Notes under the pieces: generated by a model
Seen by the model: only the letters and a program-made list of their open reading frames with translations
The model's database searches: none
Told to the model about the DNA's origin: nothing
In this document: one piece after another, positions 8,887 to 31,729 of the stretch
Layout of the letters: every line of letters starts with the position of its first letter
Numbering within the stretch: the stretch's first letter is position 1
Position numbers and translations under genes: made by a program
From: an uncultured Oscillospiraceae bacterium
GTDB taxonomy: Bacteria; Bacillota; Clostridia; Oscillospirales; Oscillospiraceae
Assembly: GCA_947629245.1 (NCBI GenBank)
Contig: CANRDC010000023.1
Span: forward strand, 1-34,288
Direction of reading: 5' to 3'
DNA: 34,288 nt

Positions 8887-8975
8887 AGATTCGCGGCCCT
8901 TACAAGTAAGGTCCACTCATCGGTCAAAGTCCTTCCTCCTCTCCCCAAAAGGCAAGCGTGCCTTTTGGGGACCCC
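8866..8975 (-). repeat. Family C nested-hairpin repeat, copy C1 (overlaps tldE end)
   Basis: On the minus strand this copy begins GGGGTCCCCAAAAGGCACGC and ends CCGACGAGCC, matching C2 and C3. The constant hairpin is 8943-8954 / 8959-8970 (12-bp perfect stem, AGCG loop). It is followed on the minus strand by GAGAGGAGGA. The inner part folds as ACTTTGA/TCAAAGT (8880-8886 / 8924-8930) enclosing CCTTAC/GTAAGG (8898-8911). These inner stems are unlike those of C2 and C3, although the nesting is the same. Confidence 0.8.
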
Positions 8976-8988
8976 ATTTCATATGGTC

Positions 8989-21752: not shown

Positions 21753-21988
21753 GGCTCCCTTGTGTAAAGGGAGCTGTCAGCACCGAAGGTGCTGACTGAG
21801 GGATTGCTTGATAGACCAGGCCCGTTGAACGCACCGCTCTATGAATCAACCTCTCCGTCCGCCTTCGGCGGCCACCTCCCATCGGGGTCCCCAAAAGGCA
21901 CGCCTGCCTTTTGGGGAGAGGAGGAGCCGCGTCGTACCTGAGCCCTGCCGCTCTGCGGCAGGGGGAAGCCTACGGCGCGAGCGACGAC
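21753..21988. repeat. Composite repeat: half of family A, part of family B, and family C copy C2
   Basis: The gap between hprK and murB (21713-22003) is mostly repeat. 21753-21808 is one arm of family A (terminal hairpin, then GTCAGCACC/GGTGCTGAC and GAGGGATTG). 21851-21880 is a reversed B arm (CCTCTCCGTCCGCC...CCACCTCCC). 21884-21988 is C2: constant hairpin 21889-21900/21905-21916, GAGAGGAGGA, inner 9-bp stem CCCTGCCGC/GCGGCAGGG (21943-21963) and outer GTCGT/ACGAC. It looks like serial insertion or recombination between elements. Confidence 0.75.
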
Positions 21989-22920: not shown

Positions 22921-23769
22921 ATGGAATTTCTCATCATCACCGGTCTGTCCGGGGCGGGCAAGACCCGCGCGGCGGACGTCTGCGAGGATCTGGGCTACTA
23001 CTGCGTGGACAATCTTCCGGCGGCGCTGCTGGGCCGGTTCGCGGCCCTGTGTCTGGCCACTCGGGGCCGGTATGAGCGGGTGGCCCTGGTGATGGACGTG
23101 CGCAGCGTGTCAACCTGCGAGGAGCTGGACGCGGCGCTGGACGAGCTGCGGGCGCTGGACTGCCAGGTGCGCATCCTCTATCTGGAGGCGGACACGGCCA
23201 CGCTGCTGCGCCGGTACAAGGAGTCCCGGCGGCCCCATCCTCTGGGCCAGCCGGGGGAGCCCATCCGCCAGGCCGTGGAGCGGGAGCGGGAATTTCTCGC
23301 GCCGGTGCGGACACGGGCGGATTTCATCATCCAGACCGATTCCGCGCCCCTGAACCGGCTCAAGGCCAAGATCTGCGAGTGCATCCAGCCGGAGGACCGG
23401 AGCTTCGCCGTGAATATCCTCTCCTTTGGCTACAAGAAGGGCATCCCGCCGGAGGCGGACCTGGTGTTCGACGTGCGGTGCCTGCCCAACCCCTTTTACG
23501 AGCCGGACCTGCAGTACCTGTCCGGCCTGGACGGACCGGTGGCGGACTATGTGTTCCGCAACGGGAACGCCCAGGCGCTGCTCGGGAAGCTCACGGACCT
23601 GCTGGAGTTCTTGCTCCCGCTGTACGAGGTGGACCGGCGGGAGCTGACCGTGGCCATCGGCTGCACCGGCGGCCACCACCGGAGCGTGGCCATGGCCCAG
23701 GCGCTGGGACAGGCTCTGGAGGACAAGTGCCGGTTGGTGAACGTCCAGCACAGAGACCTGGAGGCATAA
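22921..23769 (+). CDS. rapZ: RapZ/YvcJ-family nucleotide-binding protein
   Basis: The 282-residue P-loop protein has Walker A GLSGAGKT (residues 8-15), VMDVRS near residue 60 and the C-terminal domain signature GCTGGHHRSVAMAQ. In Enterobacteria RapZ controls glucosamine-6-phosphate synthase through small RNAs. In Bacillota the homologue YvcJ binds GTP and its role is less clear. The ATG lies directly after GGGGAGG. In Bacillota this gene is usually followed by yvcK and whiA. Here yvcK is absent and repeat A3 lies between rapZ and whiA. Confidence 0.94.
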   Translation: MEFLIITGLSGAGKTRAADVCEDLGYYCVDNLPAALLGRFAALCLATRGRYERVALVMDVRSVSTCEELDAALDELRALDCQVRILYLEADTATLLRRYKESRRPHPLGQPGEPIRQAVEREREFLAPVRTRADFIIQTDSAPLNRLKAKICECIQPEDRSFAVNILSFGYKKGIPPEADLVFDVRCLPNPFYEPDLQYLSGLDGPVADYVFRNGNAQALLGKLTDLLEFLLPLYEVDRRELTVAIGCTGGHHRSVAMAQALGQALEDKCRLVNVQHRDLEA

Positions 23770-23774
23770 ATAAA

Positions 23775-23896
23775 GCCTCCCCTGTGCAAGGGGAGGTGGG
23801 CCGCCGTAAGGCGGCTCGGAGGGGTTGTCTGTCATCCGACGCAACAATCCCCCAGTCAGCGCTTCGCGCTGCCAGCCCCCTTTGCACAAGGGGGCC
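23775..23896 (+). repeat. Family A modular palindromic repeat, copy A3
   Basis: A 122-bp element between rapZ and whiA, same orientation as A2. Terminal hairpins CCTCCCCTGTGCAAGGGGAGG and CCCCCTTTGCACAAGGGGG-like; left internal stem GCCGCC/GGCGGC (loop GTAA); core GGAGGGGTTGT with ACAATCCCCC; right internal stem AGCGC/GCGCT. The element ends 19 bp before the whiA start. Confidence 0.85.
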
Positions 23897-23915
23897 TAAG
23901 AGGTTGGGATTTGAA

Positions 23916-24818
23916 ATGAGCTTTTCATCGGACGTAAAAACCGAACTGTGCCGGGAGCCGCCCGTCAAGCGGTGCTGCGCCCTGGCGGAGGCATATGGCG
24001 CGCTGCTGTACGCCAACGCCTTTTCCCCCGCCCAGATCCGCATCATGACGGAAAACGACGCCTTTGCCGCCCGGCTGCCCCGGCTGTTCCACCGGGCCTT
24101 CTCGGTGGATTTCGACGCGGTCCCTCCGCCGGAGGCGTCCGGCAAGCGCTCCTTCCTCATCACGGACCGGGACAAGCTCCGTACCATATTCGCCGCCTTC
24201 GGCTACGACCCGGCCCGGACGGTGGTCCACCACATCAATCTGGCGGTGGTGGAATCCGACTGCGACCGGACGGCCTTTCTGCGGGGGGCGTTCCTGGCGG
24301 GGGGCAGCGTCACGGACCCGGCCAGGGGCTATCATCTGGAGCTGGCCACCGGCCATGAGAGCGTGTGCCGGGAGGTCCGGGCCCTGCTGCTGGATATGGG
24401 CTTCGAGCCGCGGGAGGTGAGCCGGGGCGGCCGCTGGATCACATATTTTAAAAAGAGCGACGCCATCGAGGACCTGCTCACCACCCTGGGCGCGCCCCTG
24501 TCCGCCATGGGCGTGATGCAGGCCAAGGTGGAAAAGCACATGACAAACGCCATGAACCGCATCACCAACTGCGACATGGCCAACGCCGACAAGGTCACCG
24601 GCGCGGCGGCGGAGCAGCTGGCCGCCATCCGGACCATCGAGGCCGGGACTGGCCTGGACGGGCTGCCGCCCGCCCTGCAGGAGGCGGCGCTGCTGCGCAT
24701 CGCGAACCCCTCCTGCTCCCTCGCGGACCTGGCCCAGCTGGCCTATCCCCCCGTCACGAAAAGCTGCATGAACCACCGTTTGAGAAAATTGGTCGAGCTG
24801 AGCCATAATATGGAATAA
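23916..24818 (+). CDS. whiA: DNA-binding protein WhiA
   Basis: WhiA combines a LAGLIDADG-endonuclease-like N-terminal domain with a C-terminal helix-turn-helix. It is a sporulation regulator in Streptomyces and affects division and chromosome segregation in Bacillus. The 300-residue protein shows MSFSSDVKTELCRE at the start, LRGAFLAGGSVTDP (LAGLIDADG-like, about residues 127-140), and NRITNCDMANADKVTGAA before the helix-turn-helix (LADLAQLAYPPVTKSCMNHRLRKL). The ATG at 23916 follows AAGAGG at a rather long distance; the protein start matches the family. Confidence 0.94.
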   Translation: MSFSSDVKTELCREPPVKRCCALAEAYGALLYANAFSPAQIRIMTENDAFAARLPRLFHRAFSVDFDAVPPPEASGKRSFLITDRDKLRTIFAAFGYDPARTVVHHINLAVVESDCDRTAFLRGAFLAGGSVTDPARGYHLELATGHESVCREVRALLLDMGFEPREVSRGGRWITYFKKSDAIEDLLTTLGAPLSAMGVMQAKVEKHMTNAMNRITNCDMANADKVTGAAAEQLAAIRTIEAGTGLDGLPPALQEAALLRIANPSCSLADLAQLAYPPVTKSCMNHRLRKLVELSHNME

Positions 24819-24824
24819 GGAGGC

Positions 24825-25041
24825 CGCCATGTCCTTCGTAACTGCTGTCAAAACCAGTTTTGACAGCAATGATTGAAACTGCGAGGGGAAAGTGAATTCC
24901 CCCTCGCAGAAAGTCAAAATCCTGCCGTACCGCGGATTTCGACTTTGACGCGCGGGAATGCCGCGCGGCTCGCCCTGACCGGGCTTCGCTCTTACCTGCC
25001 TATCAATTGACAGTATAAAGGAGAACGCCATGTCCTTCGTA
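24825..25041. mobile_element. 201-bp structured insertion between whiA and dnaE, flanked by a 16-bp direct repeat
   Basis: CGCCATGTCCTTCGTA occurs exactly at 24825-24840 and again at 25026-25041, where it is the dnaE start. Between them are four consecutive hairpins: 24844-24867 (11-bp stem), 24879-24909 (12-bp stem with one bulge), 24910-24946 (13-bp, one mismatch) and 24950-24966 (6 bp). CTGTCAA (24845) and TTGACAG (25007) lie near the two ends as short inverted repeats. No protein of useful size is encoded. Removing one repeat and the insert would put dnaE 10 bp after whiA behind AAGGAGG. Insertion of a small element is the best reading; a structured leader is the alternative. Confidence 0.65.
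24829..24876 (+). other. Duplicated dnaE start giving a 15-codon open frame
   Basis: ATG at 24829 has a perfect AAGGAGG (24817-24823) and begins with the same four codons as dnaE (MSFV), then reads TAVKTSFDSND and stops at 24874-24876. It is probably the former dnaE start, cut off by the insertion. It would still attract ribosomes. Whether the peptide has any role is unknown. Confidence 0.5.
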
Positions 25042-28000
25042 CACCTGCACGTACACAGCGAATACAGCCTTCTGGACGGGGCCTGCCGCATCGACGAGAT
25101 GGCCAAGCGGGCCAAGGAGATGGGCCAGGAGGCCCTGGCCATCACCGACCACGGGGTGATGTACGGCGTGGTGGACTTTTACCGGGCCTGCCGGGCGGCA
25201 GGGGTCAAGCCCATCATCGGCTGCGAGGTGTACGTGGCCCCCAGGGGCAGGACGGACAAGGAATACGGCCTGGACAACAACTACTCCCACCTGATCCTCC
25301 TGTGCAGAAACGAGACGGGCTACCACAACCTGTGCAAGCTGGTCAGCGAGGGCTTTGTGAACGGGTTCTATATCCGGCCCCGGATCGACTGGGAGCTGCT
25401 GCACCAGCACGCCGAGGGGCTCATCTGCCTGTCCGCGTGCCTGGCGGGAGACATCCCCCAGAAGCTCGTGAACGGCCAGTACGAGGCGGCCAAGGCCAGG
25501 GCCCTGGAGCTTCGGGAGCTGTTCGGCGAGGACGGCTTTTACCTGGAGCTGCAGGACCACGGCATCCCCGACGAGCACCAGGCCGCCCTGGGCCTTATCC
25601 GCATCCACAACGAGACCGGCATCCCCCTGGCGGTCACCAACGACGCCCACTATCTGCGCCGGGAGGACGCCCGCATCCAGGACGTGCTCATGTGCATCCA
25701 GACCGGCAAGACCGTGGACGACCCGGACCGGATGAAGTTCGAGAGTCAGGAGCTGTACCTCAAGAGCGAGGAGGAGATGCGCGCGCTCTTCCCCGACCTG
25801 CCCGAGGCATACGACAACACGGTCAGGATCGCGGAGCTTTGCGATTTCGACTTCGAGTTCGGCCACTATCACCTGCCCCAGTTCCAGCTCCCCGAGGGGG
25901 AGACGGACAGCTTCGCTTTCCTGCACAGGCTCTGCTACGAGGGCCTTGCCCAGCGCTATCCCGGCTACGGCAAAGACCTGTCCGACAGGCTGGACTATGA
26001 GCTGGGCGTCATCCGCCAGATGGGCTTCGTGGACTACTTCCTCATCGTCTGGGACTTCATCTCCTTCGCCAAAGGCGCCGGTATCCCGGTGGGGCCGGGC
26101 CGTGGCTCCGGCGCCGGGTCCATCGTCAGCTATACCCTGCACATCACCGACGTGGACCCCATCAAGTACAAGCTCTTCTTCGAGCGGTTCCTGAACCCCG
26201 AGCGGGTCACCATGCCGGATATCGACATGGACTTCTGCGTCCGCCGCCGGGGCGAAGTCATCGATTATGTCAACCAAAAATACGGCTCGGACCATGTAGC
26301 TCAGATCGTGACCTTCGGCACCATGGCGGCCCGGGCCTCCATCCGGGACGTGGGAAGGGTCCTGAACGTGGGCTACGGGGAGACGGACGCGGTGGCGAAA
26401 AACGTTCCCTTCGCGCCGGGTATGACTTTGGACGAGGCTCTGCGGCTTTCCAAGCCCCTGAAGGACATGTACGAGGGCGACGAGAAGATCAAAAACCTCA
26501 TCGACACCGCCCGTGCCCTGGAGGGCATGCCCCGCAACGCCTCCACCCACGCGGCGGGCGTGGTCATCACGGCAAAGCCTCTGACGGACTATGTGCCCCT
26601 CTCCCGCAACGACGACACGGTGGTCTGCCAGTTCGGCATGGTGACGCTGGAGCAGCTGGGTCTTTTGAAGATGGACTTTCTGGGGCTGCGGAACCTGACG
26701 GTGCTGGAGGACGCGGCGGAGCTGGTCCGCCGGACGGACCCCTCCTTCCGGGTGGACGCCATGCCCGAGGACGACCCGGACACCTTCCGGATGCTCACCG
26801 AGGGCAAGACCAGCGGCGTGTTCCAGCTGGAGTCGGCGGGCATGACCGGGGTGTGCGTGGGGCTCAAGCCCCGGTCCATTGAGGACATCACCGCCGTCAT
26901 CGCCCTGTACCGCCCCGGTCCCATGGAGTCCATCCCCCGGTTTTTGGAGTGCGCGGCAAACCCGGACCGGGTCACCTATAAGCACGAGCTGCTGCGGCCC
27001 ATCCTGGACGTGACCTACGGCTGCATCGTCTATCAGGAGCAGGTCATCAGCATCTTCCAGCGCCTGGCGGGCTTCTCCCTGGGTCAGGCGGACCTGATCC
27101 GCCGGGCCATGAGCAAGAAAAAGCACGACGTGATCGACGCCGAGCGCCGCGCCTTCGTCTACGGGGACCCGGACCGGAGCATCCCCGGCTGCCTTGCCAA
27201 CGGGGTCAGCGAGGCCGTGGCCAACAGCATCTACGACGAGATACTGGATTTCGCCTCCTACGCCTTCAACAAGGCCCACGCGGTGTGCTACGCCATCGTG
27301 GCCTATCGGACCGCCTGGATGAAGTGCCACTGGCCGAAGGAGTACATGGCGGCGCTTTTGACCAGCGTGCTGGACTGGTCCGGCAAGGTGGCGGAATACA
27401 TCGCCGAGTGCCGGACCATGGGCATCGACCTGCTGCCCCCGGACGTGAACGAGTCCGACGCGGACTTCACCGTGGCGGGGGGCAACATCCGCTTCGGTCT
27501 GGCGGCGGTGAAGGGCGTGGGCCGGGGCTTCGTCCAGCAGCTCATGGCGGAGCGGGAGTCCGGCGGGCCGTTCACCGCCTTCGACGAGTTCTGTCGGCGG
27601 ATGTACGGCAAGGAGCTGAACCGCCGACCGGTGGAGAGCCTGATCCGGGCCGGAGCCTTTGACTCCATGGGCTACAAGCGCCGGGCGCTGCTGCAGGCGC
27701 TGGACAAGGTCCTGGACGGGGTCAACAGCGCCGGGCGGAAAAATCTGGCCGGGCAGCTGGACCTGTTCTCCATGGATACGGACGACGAGCCGGTCTCCAC
27801 GCTGGAGCTGCCCGACGTGGAGGAGTTCTCCGCCGCAGAGAAGATGGCCATGGAAAAGCAGACCACGGGCCTTTACCTCACCGGCCACCCCATGGACGGC
27901 TACCGGGAGGCGGTGCAAAAGCTGGGGGCCGCCTCCATCGGCGCCATATTGGAGGACTTCACCGGGGACGAAGGGCCCCGCCGCTTCCAGGACGGACAGC

Positions 28001-28554
28001 AGGTCATCCTGGCGGGGGTGGTGGCCGCCGCCCGGACCCGGACCACGAAAAACAACACCCTCATGAGCTACGTGACGCTGGAGGACGACACCGGCTCCAT
28101 GGAGCTGCTGGCCTTCCAGCGGGCCCTGGACCAGGGGGGCGGCTACCTGCGGGAGAACGCCGCCGTGTGCTGCACGGGGCGCATCTCCGTCCGGGACGAG
28201 AAGGACCCCCAGCTGATGCTGGACGCGGTCTATCCACTGGACGGGCTGGAGGATAAGACCATCGCCGCCATCAAAAAGGCCGCCAGCGACGGAGGCTACG
28301 CGGCCCGCCGGACGCCGCCTCCACAGGCCCCGGCTCAGCCGGGCGCGAGGACCCTCTGGGTCCGGCTGCCCAGCAGGGACGACCCCGCCTTCCGGCGCAT
28401 CGGGCTGGTGCTGACCATGTTCCCCGGCACGGAGAGCATGGTGGTCTATTTCGCGGACACGAAAAAGCGCCTGGGCGCCCGGTGCGGCATCCACCCGGCC
28501 CTGGTGGAGGAGCTCACGGAGCTGCTGGGCGCGGAAAACGTGGTCATTAAATAA
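25030..28554 (+). CDS. dnaE: DNA polymerase III subunit alpha (DnaE type)
   Basis: The 1174-residue replicative polymerase subunit belongs to family C. Domains in order: PHP domain (FVHLHVHSEYSLLDGA at the N-terminus, to about residue 270), palm with the catalytic acidic motif PDIDMDF (Asp399 and Asp401), thumb/fingers with THAAGVVI and IALYRPGPMESIP, helix-hairpin-helix region, and a C-terminal OB fold (VILAGVVAAART...YVTLEDDTGSMELLAF, about 985-1040). GGCAAG exonuclease domains of PolC type are absent. The ATG is preceded by AAAGGAG within the inserted sequence. hflX and yigZ follow. Confidence 0.96.
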   Translation: MSFVHLHVHSEYSLLDGACRIDEMAKRAKEMGQEALAITDHGVMYGVVDFYRACRAAGVKPIIGCEVYVAPRGRTDKEYGLDNNYSHLILLCRNETGYHNLCKLVSEGFVNGFYIRPRIDWELLHQHAEGLICLSACLAGDIPQKLVNGQYEAAKARALELRELFGEDGFYLELQDHGIPDEHQAALGLIRIHNETGIPLAVTNDAHYLRREDARIQDVLMCIQTGKTVDDPDRMKFESQELYLKSEEEMRALFPDLPEAYDNTVRIAELCDFDFEFGHYHLPQFQLPEGETDSFAFLHRLCYEGLAQRYPGYGKDLSDRLDYELGVIRQMGFVDYFLIVWDFISFAKGAGIPVGPGRGSGAGSIVSYTLHITDVDPIKYKLFFERFLNPERVTMPDIDMDFCVRRRGEVIDYVNQKYGSDHVAQIVTFGTMAARASIRDVGRVLNVGYGETDAVAKNVPFAPGMTLDEALRLSKPLKDMYEGDEKIKNLIDTARALEGMPRNASTHAAGVVITAKPLTDYVPLSRNDDTVVCQFGMVTLEQLGLLKMDFLGLRNLTVLEDAAELVRRTDPSFRVDAMPEDDPDTFRMLTEGKTSGVFQLESAGMTGVCVGLKPRSIEDITAVIALYRPGPMESIPRFLECAANPDRVTYKHELLRPILDVTYGCIVYQEQVISIFQRLAGFSLGQADLIRRAMSKKKHDVIDAERRAFVYGDPDRSIPGCLANGVSEAVANSIYDEILDFASYAFNKAHAVCYAIVAYRTAWMKCHWPKEYMAALLTSVLDWSGKVAEYIAECRTMGIDLLPPDVNESDADFTVAGGNIRFGLAAVKGVGRGFVQQLMAERESGGPFTAFDEFCRRMYGKELNRRPVESLIRAGAFDSMGYKRRALLQALDKVLDGVNSAGRKNLAGQLDLFSMDTDDEPVSTLELPDVEEFSAAEKMAMEKQTTGLYLTGHPMDGYREAVQKLGAASIGAILEDFTGDEGPRRFQDGQQVILAGVVAAARTRTTKNNTLMSYVTLEDDTGSMELLAFQRALDQGGGYLRENAAVCCTGRISVRDEKDPQLMLDAVYPLDGLEDKTIAAIKKAASDGGYAARRTPPPQAPAQPGARTLWVRLPSRDDPAFRRIGLVLTMFPGTESMVVYFADTKKRLGARCGIHPALVEELTELLGAENVVIK

Positions 28555-31620: not shown

Positions 31621-31729
31621 GGGGCCCCCAAAAGGCACGCTTGCCTTTTGGGGAGAGGAGGAGCCGCTGGCTATCCGAGATTCGCCGCTTGCGGCAAATC
31701 CCGGCCTAGCCATGCGAGCTCCGACGAGG
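31621..31729 (+). repeat. Family C nested-hairpin repeat, copy C3 (next to the dnaG ribosome site)
   Basis: Constant hairpin 31626-31637 / 31642-31653 (12-bp stem, loop CGCT), then GAGAGGAGGA. Nested inner stems are TGGCTA/TAGCCA (31668-31673, 31707-31712), GATT/AATC and GCCGC/GCGGC (31684-31695). It ends CCGACGAGG at 31729. The final AGG runs into AGGAGG, the ribosome-binding site of dnaG 12 bp before its ATG. The inner stems share no sequence with C1 or C2. Confidence 0.8.

Follow-up and report, generated by a model that had tools for sequence, protein, structure and literature searches.

The question raised by the whiA-dnaE junction of an uncultured Oscillospiraceae bacterium (contig CANRDC010000023.1 of assembly GCA_947629245.1) is what kind of sequence could have entered at the start codon of dnaE and left this start present twice. 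In the 34,288-nucleotide stretch analysed here, which is called the window throughout, the sequence CGCCATGTCCTTCGTA occurs exactly twice, at positions 24825-24840 and 25026-25041, with a spacing of 201 bp, and gave no match in 100 shuffled windows. The initial annotation had placed one copy of this 16-bp repeat behind the whiA stop and the other at the dnaE start, which proved correct, and the repeat extends further to 24 bp of the form AAGGAG[GC/AA]CGCCATGTCCTTCGTA, with an identity of 22/24 and an exact part of 16 bp. The left copy (24817-24840, plus strand) overlaps the stop codon (24816-24818) of the upstream gene whiA (23379-24818, plus strand; Pfam HTH_WhiA and LAGLIDADG_WhiA) and carries a ribosome site, a start codon and the first dnaE codons, whereas the right copy (25018-25041, plus strand) now serves dnaE itself as the start of its 1174-aa frame (DNA polymerase III alpha; 25030-28554, plus strand; Pfam PHP, DNA_pol3_alpha, DNA_pol3_finger, HHH_6 and tRNA_anti-codon). 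The ribosome site lies inside the duplicated segment, which contradicts the earlier proposal that it was newly supplied by the insert. The 24-bp segment is not palindromic, its best stem having 5 pairs at about -2 kcal/mol.

The sequence between the two copies is highly structured (z = -6.37 in folding) and is composed of a terminal hairpin, four further stems and a degenerate inverted end. The left terminal hairpin (24843-24868, no strand assigned) has a perfect 12-bp stem, includes the left inverted end CTGTCAAAAC and corresponds to GCTTGTCAAAAAAC...GTTTTTGAC of other copies; it is followed by a core of stems H1-H4 (24871-24989, plus strand), which is common to the family members in the same and related genomes, and by the right inverted end TCAATTGACAG (25003-25013, no strand assigned), which appears as a degenerate form of TTCTTTGACAG in the alignment row of the window copy and is to be compared with the IS1182 terminal repeat CAGTCTGTCAAAGAA. 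A previous description as four back-to-back hairpins with short inverted ends thus holds for the ends, the right one being degenerate, and has to be corrected to five hairpins. No transposase gene is present in the window copy; it contains the putative 15-codon frame recognized before, which runs from the left repeat copy into the element (24829-24876, plus strand; translation MSFVTAVKTSFDSND followed by a stop) and might, as suggested earlier, tune polymerase levels. At the gathering threshold, no Rfam match was obtained in the window, including the insert locus. The window also harbors a second structured repeat family of about 100 bp with the layout GGGGTCCCC-hairpin-GGGGAGAGGAG...GACGACGA, at 21879-21966 (plus strand), 31621-31698 (plus strand) and 8936-8977 (minus strand), which yields 40 match rows in the same genome, a number that includes echoes of the palindrome on the opposite strand, and likewise has no Rfam match in the window.

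A search of the own and related genomes together with a comparison of the junction, as had been suggested, bears on the nature of the insert. The window's own assembly contains 17 match rows at 13 places, some long copies being represented by two rows, and among 40 genomes searched the element was found in 17 of the 25 that belong to the genus, whereas the 15 that represent other genera of this order gave no match. Of the 80 stretches listed as matching a pattern for H4, 78 belong to uncultured rabbit-gut ("Lapin") Oscillospiraceae MAGs, the other two to an Oscillospiraceae MAG (L163) and a Phycisphaeraceae MAG (L187); viral contigs searched with one element pattern gave 0 matches. The dnaE gene was found in all 35 genus genomes searched, and 30 of these 35 loci were read, namely the own one and 29 others. 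In all 29 of the latter, whiA runs to dnaE without an insert, indicating that the dnaE insertion is particular to the window's lineage among the genomes read and that the shorter allele came first. As judged from its multiple copies and its polymorphism with empty sites, the structured insert is a mobile element. It is short and multi-copy, lacks a transposase gene, has empty sites in relatives and is flanked by a target duplication, as is characteristic of MITEs. The most suitable reading is that of an IS1182-derived MITE with a length of about 180 bp, which agrees with the earlier proposal of a small non-autonomous element at the dnaE start: other copies carry duplications of their own, and the genus contains an IS that shares these ends.

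The stems of the element were compared in 42 copies with intact left ends, chosen for diversity from 49 short full-length copies and including the window copy. Standard pairs fill 97.3% of the pair cells, and 10 pairs are changed on both sides in 73 cells compared to 19.0 in shuffles, these cells being counts of sequences rather than of events; if the partner is slid by 1-3 columns, 0-2 double-changed pairs remain. The number of further standard pair types (16) is close to that in shuffles (14.0), 25 of 500 shuffles having attained it as well. Two H1 pairs are not formed in 10 and 15 sequences, as two subfamilies pair in different registers. The pattern shows that the hairpins of the element are kept, a state which gives no purpose by itself, and palindromes may also be kept by template switching. 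An Rfam search of 20 loci with copies gave one match above its gathering score, which is a 6S RNA located outside the element, and three further matches that stayed below theirs, so that no known Rfam family can be assigned to the element itself. The 6S RNA gene (RF00013, 71 bits) is located at positions 305-498 of locus L021 (plus strand), close to another element copy.

Covarying, stable stems directly before dnaE would also be expected of a structured 5' UTR that regulates this gene in cis, with the upstream start as a decoy and the whole kept by selection at the locus. The initial annotation had linked such a leader to a spacer found at this locus only and with covarying stems; the covarying stems are indeed present, but the confinement to the locus is not, since the same element occupies 12 further places in the same genome. 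Moreover, conservation at the locus is refuted by the 29 empty junctions in relatives and no Rfam match exists there, which makes a dnaE leader highly improbable. The other explanation raised earlier, a local duplication of the dnaE start with later uptake of an unrelated sequence and no transposition, would account for the 24-bp repeat, which taken alone could be a tandem duplication, but the presence of the same insert at many loci with different flanking repeats renders it barely conceivable.

The family comprises 147 distinct copies with both flanks (152 found, 5 dropped for short flanks), a number which counts orthologous-site copies in different species separately and does not equal that of independent events; long-form copies can be split, as in at least one row (the second one of L007), and 3'-truncated copies are under-represented, as many loci were found by the H4 pattern. 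An intact left end (model start at position 5 or lower; type A) is present in 76 copies, 61 start at positions 19-42 (type B), 7 are truncated more deeply and 3 lie in between. A flanking direct repeat with a score of at least 13 was detected for 53 of the 147 copies, the remaining 94 staying below this threshold, as compared to 0.43% of 3000 mismatched pairs of left and right flanks, a control in which scores of up to 47 are reached in places, probably via flanks of related copies. The length of the target duplications varies from 13 to 68 bp. The 16-bp duplication at dnaE had rightly been flagged as unusually long; long duplications varying in length from copy to copy are a property of this element family.

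In type A copies, the duplicated segment is typically a whole terminator-like hairpin, such as AACTGACCGGGCTCTGCCCGGTCAGTT (L155) or AGGCGCGCTGCATGAGCAGCGCGCCT (L015), the label "terminator" being judged by appearance. A hairpin of at least 8 pairs adjoins the left end in 60 of the 76 type A copies, the right end in 32, both ends in 29 and neither in 13, compared to 3 of 435 control positions, while the corresponding numbers for the 61 type B copies are 8, 7 and 0 (left, right, both; control 11/350). Of the 31 type A duplications scoring at least 15, 21 fold as one spanning hairpin according to a script (control 100/930) and six more consist of a full hairpin plus extra bases as judged by eye (L198, L159, L149, L147, L122 and L154), giving 27 of 31 with a whole hairpin; the four without are those of the window, L012, L220 and L131. 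Among the 19 duplications outside the intact-left-end group, a spanning hairpin was found in 1 right and 2 left copies (control 56/570). An open-frame count for the orientation of the element relative to the terminated gene returned "both" for 49 of the 76 type A copies and so did not discriminate in this GC-rich DNA. In L119, and likewise in the IS1182 locus L313 treated below, the two copies of the duplicated hairpin agree in their stems and have their loops in opposite orientation.

One such site is that of L071, where the hairpin is identical on both sides of the element (31/31). Its upstream flank is 95% identical in another genome of the genus (G043), which has one hairpin and no element, and a single hairpin is also present in G049 and G047, indicating that the hairpin was single before the insertion. 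The search for this flank gave 34 places, and 12 loci among them were read, one being the occupied site itself; of the 11 others, 3 have a clear single hairpin and the rest show other hairpins, none, or different neighbours. A replacement of the stem-loop as known for IS1272, in which the hairpin is lost and no target duplication arises, does not describe these insertions, since 29 of 76 type A copies, and also the transposase gene described next, are flanked by a hairpin on either side.

A search with an IS1634 profile in the genus gave weak matches only, and an IS1634 transposase was dismissed as partner, as none scored above the cut-off in 35 genus genomes; one of the weak matches (L273) led to an IS1182 element. 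The protein encoded there is an IS1182-family transposase (NF033551, 406 bits at a cut-off of 270), its gene is bounded by CAGTCTGTCAAAGAA repeats, and the hairpin GACACGCATTCGCGTGTC is present on both sides. The ends of the MITE family, GAGCTTGTCAAA... and ...TTCTTTGACAGTCTG, are shared with IS1182 loci of the genus, as is seen from a comparison of GAGCTTGTCAAA and (read inwards) CAGACTGTCAAAGAA with CAGTCTGTCAAAGAA and CAGCTTGTCAAAGAA, the window copy's own ends being degenerate. IS1182 matches occur in 15 of the 35 genus genomes and exceed the cut-off in 3; the window's own assembly has four fragment matches only, the best of which apparently ends near a contig end, as inferred from the length of L279. 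A first scan of 1.4 Mb of collected loci for pairs of end patterns had revealed no autonomous element. The IS1182 end pattern matched 28 times in genus loci, and in 20 of these, a count without a control, a hairpin of at least 7 pairs ends within 2 bases; the other 8 include one place that recurs in overlapping loci, hairpins judged by eye to be imperfect, and a coding-like site. The type of target is thus shared between these 20 of 28 IS1182 ends and 60 of 76 intact left ends of the MITE, the window copy having a non-hairpin target.

Across the class, 12 of 148 genomes contain IS1182 matches at E <= 1e-80, amounting to 17 loci. Hairpins are repeated on both sides in 3 of them, from three other genera (L306, 24 bp; L308, 30 bp; L313, about 33 bp), and the script detected no hairpin duplication in the other 14, finding no end repeats at all for 7 loci. 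Several of these class-wide loci have other ends, such as GGGGCTGT, some show at most a short direct repeat, and in L319 the IS appears by eye to split an inverted repeat. Hairpin duplication therefore seems to belong to part of the IS1182 family. Some further short elements of the genus (L247 and L264 in G018, L245 in G044, L248 in G012) have the same left end and a different interior, and one transposase may be common to several families with this left end.

The insertion at dnaE is of the gene-border kind, with a non-palindromic target and a duplication that regenerates the start of the gene. Type B copies, which lack the left hairpin, are frequent at such borders. Duplications of 39/39 are seen at the start of a gene that we take to encode an ACT-domain protein (L037), and of 56-67 bp at the end of a gene that is presumably nrdR (L014, L073 and L158). 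Further duplications (46 bp and imperfect in L012, 24 bp in L058, 35/35 in L026) occur at the start of a gene assumed from reading to be guaA. At all three types of border the duplication leaves one complete gene edge, as judged by eye. The copies L072 and L169 share their flanks and go back to one insertion, in which the left hairpin is kept in one copy and by eye was lost between CTGA repeats in the other; judging from this pair, deletion of the left hairpin has at least once turned a full copy into one that lacks it. Six copies begin at model positions 108-120, and one of them (L228) has a 15-bp repeat. There is also a long form of the dnaE-type element, in which the second structured repeat described above for the window is nested in the H3 loop (L026-L030, L080 and L225), and some of these composites have flanking duplications as well (L026, 35/35; L080, 28/28), on which grounds they may move as a unit.

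The truncated copies bear on two other explanations of the family. A SINE-like retro-element, whose structured RNA is reverse-transcribed and inserted, would give rise to duplications of variable length and to 5' truncations, and the six copies starting at positions 108-120, including L228 with its repeat, suit such RNA copying. As a sign of reverse transcription, however, truncations are weakened by the L072/L169 pair, which reveals that loss of the left end can follow insertion, and the collection is biased towards copies keeping the 3' part; as the terminal repeats moreover equal the ends of an IS1182 element that chooses targets of this kind and likewise duplicates the hairpin, a retro-element is improbable. 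Alternatively, the core might represent a second mobile system without terminal repeats and with gene borders as targets, which was captured by hairpin-targeting IS1182 MITEs. This would be in line with the 61 of 147 copies without a left end, 17 of which have duplications scoring at least 13, nearly all of them non-hairpin, but the same L072/L169 pair documents a change from intact to left-end-deleted, and intact-left-end copies also have non-palindromic duplications (window, L012 and L220). We regard a separate system as unlikely, if a more serious contender than the retro-element.

Taking these observations together, the insert is probably a MITE, about 180 bp long, that is moved by an IS1182-family (DDE) transposase acting in trans and directed at hairpins. 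The family is flanked by target duplications of variable length, which correspond to one whole terminator-like hairpin in most of the clear cases with an intact left end. The duplication pattern leads us to infer a cruciform step: the target palindrome would be extruded as a cruciform, and gap repair would copy the hairpin on both sides of the element, making the duplication equal to the palindrome. At gene borders such as that of dnaE, long duplications at non-palindromic sites would have to arise by another route, and insertions there may be tolerated since the duplication makes the gene edge complete again. Evidence against this reading comes from the non-palindromic duplications at dnaE, L012, L220 and L131 and in nearly all cases outside the intact-left-end group, as well as from the degenerate right end of the window copy and the presence of mere transposase fragments in its own assembly. 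The 94 copies without a duplication at the threshold, the 13 type A copies lacking a hairpin at either end, the low share of class-wide IS1182 loci with hairpin duplication (3 of 17), the 4-bp repeats listed for the IS1182-family element ISPse1 and the six deeply truncated copies also count against it. One extension appears possible to us, if rather short of probable, namely that this IS1182 branch reads the shape of DNA to set its stagger: strand transfer to the feet of a palindrome in its extruded form would yield palindrome-long duplications, and a related, relaxed mode would yield those of 15-68 bp at gene borders, which would allow entry at the margin of an indispensable gene like dnaE while leaving it whole.

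The closest known systems are IS1272 and TnSha1 of staphylococci, which belong to the IS1182 family and target inverted repeats and terminator hairpins without a sequence consensus (PMC4923244, PMC5678879); targets other than inverted repeats have also been described (PMC5678879). The link to an IS1182-family transposase and the hairpin targets are alike, but IS1272 is reported to partly delete or replace the hairpin without a target duplication (PMC4923244, PMC5678879), whereas here the whole hairpin is duplicated by an element without a gene. A hypothetical "pathway b" proposed by Wan et al. (2017), in which the whole stem-loop becomes duplicated when a cruciform is attacked at its 5' feet (discussion and legend of Fig 13 in PMC5678879), has the outcome seen in the copies described here; it is drawn there as an alternative and, in these sections of the paper, not reported for IS1272, while it is frequent in our family. 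IS1549 and IS1634 of the IS1634 family are known for long direct repeats that vary from 8 to 514 bp; according to a survey of the IS4 and related families from 2008, no model had been put forward for these (PMC2266710). These elements resemble the present one in the variable long repeats, but their transposases are of a different family, and no link to hairpins is described in the relevant sections of the survey. Conversely, ISPse1 of Paracoccus shares the IS1182 transposase family and is listed with a duplication of 4 bp (PMC3281130). Bacterial MITEs in general are short, structured, multi-copy and devoid of genes, and the main text of a review on them does not mention IS1182, nor do its relevant sections describe a duplication equal to a hairpin (PMC10969869). 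Among the matches listed from the open-access literature, as far as their accessible text goes, none describes an IS1182 element that duplicates a hairpin. MITEs and hairpin targeting by IS1182 elements are thus already known, and the new aspect is a MITE of the IS1182 type with a target duplication that in most cases corresponds to the hairpin at the target.

Most bacterial transposons produce target duplications of near-fixed length, which is set by the geometry of the enzyme. In the family described here, the length of the duplication follows the hairpin that was hit, as would be predicted for an attack on a cruciform, and this offers a testable handle on variable-length duplications; a stagger set by DNA shape, if true, would provide a physical explanation for them. 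The dnaE locus also shows that an indispensable gene can be hit by a transposon at its very start codon and yet remain present as a complete copy.
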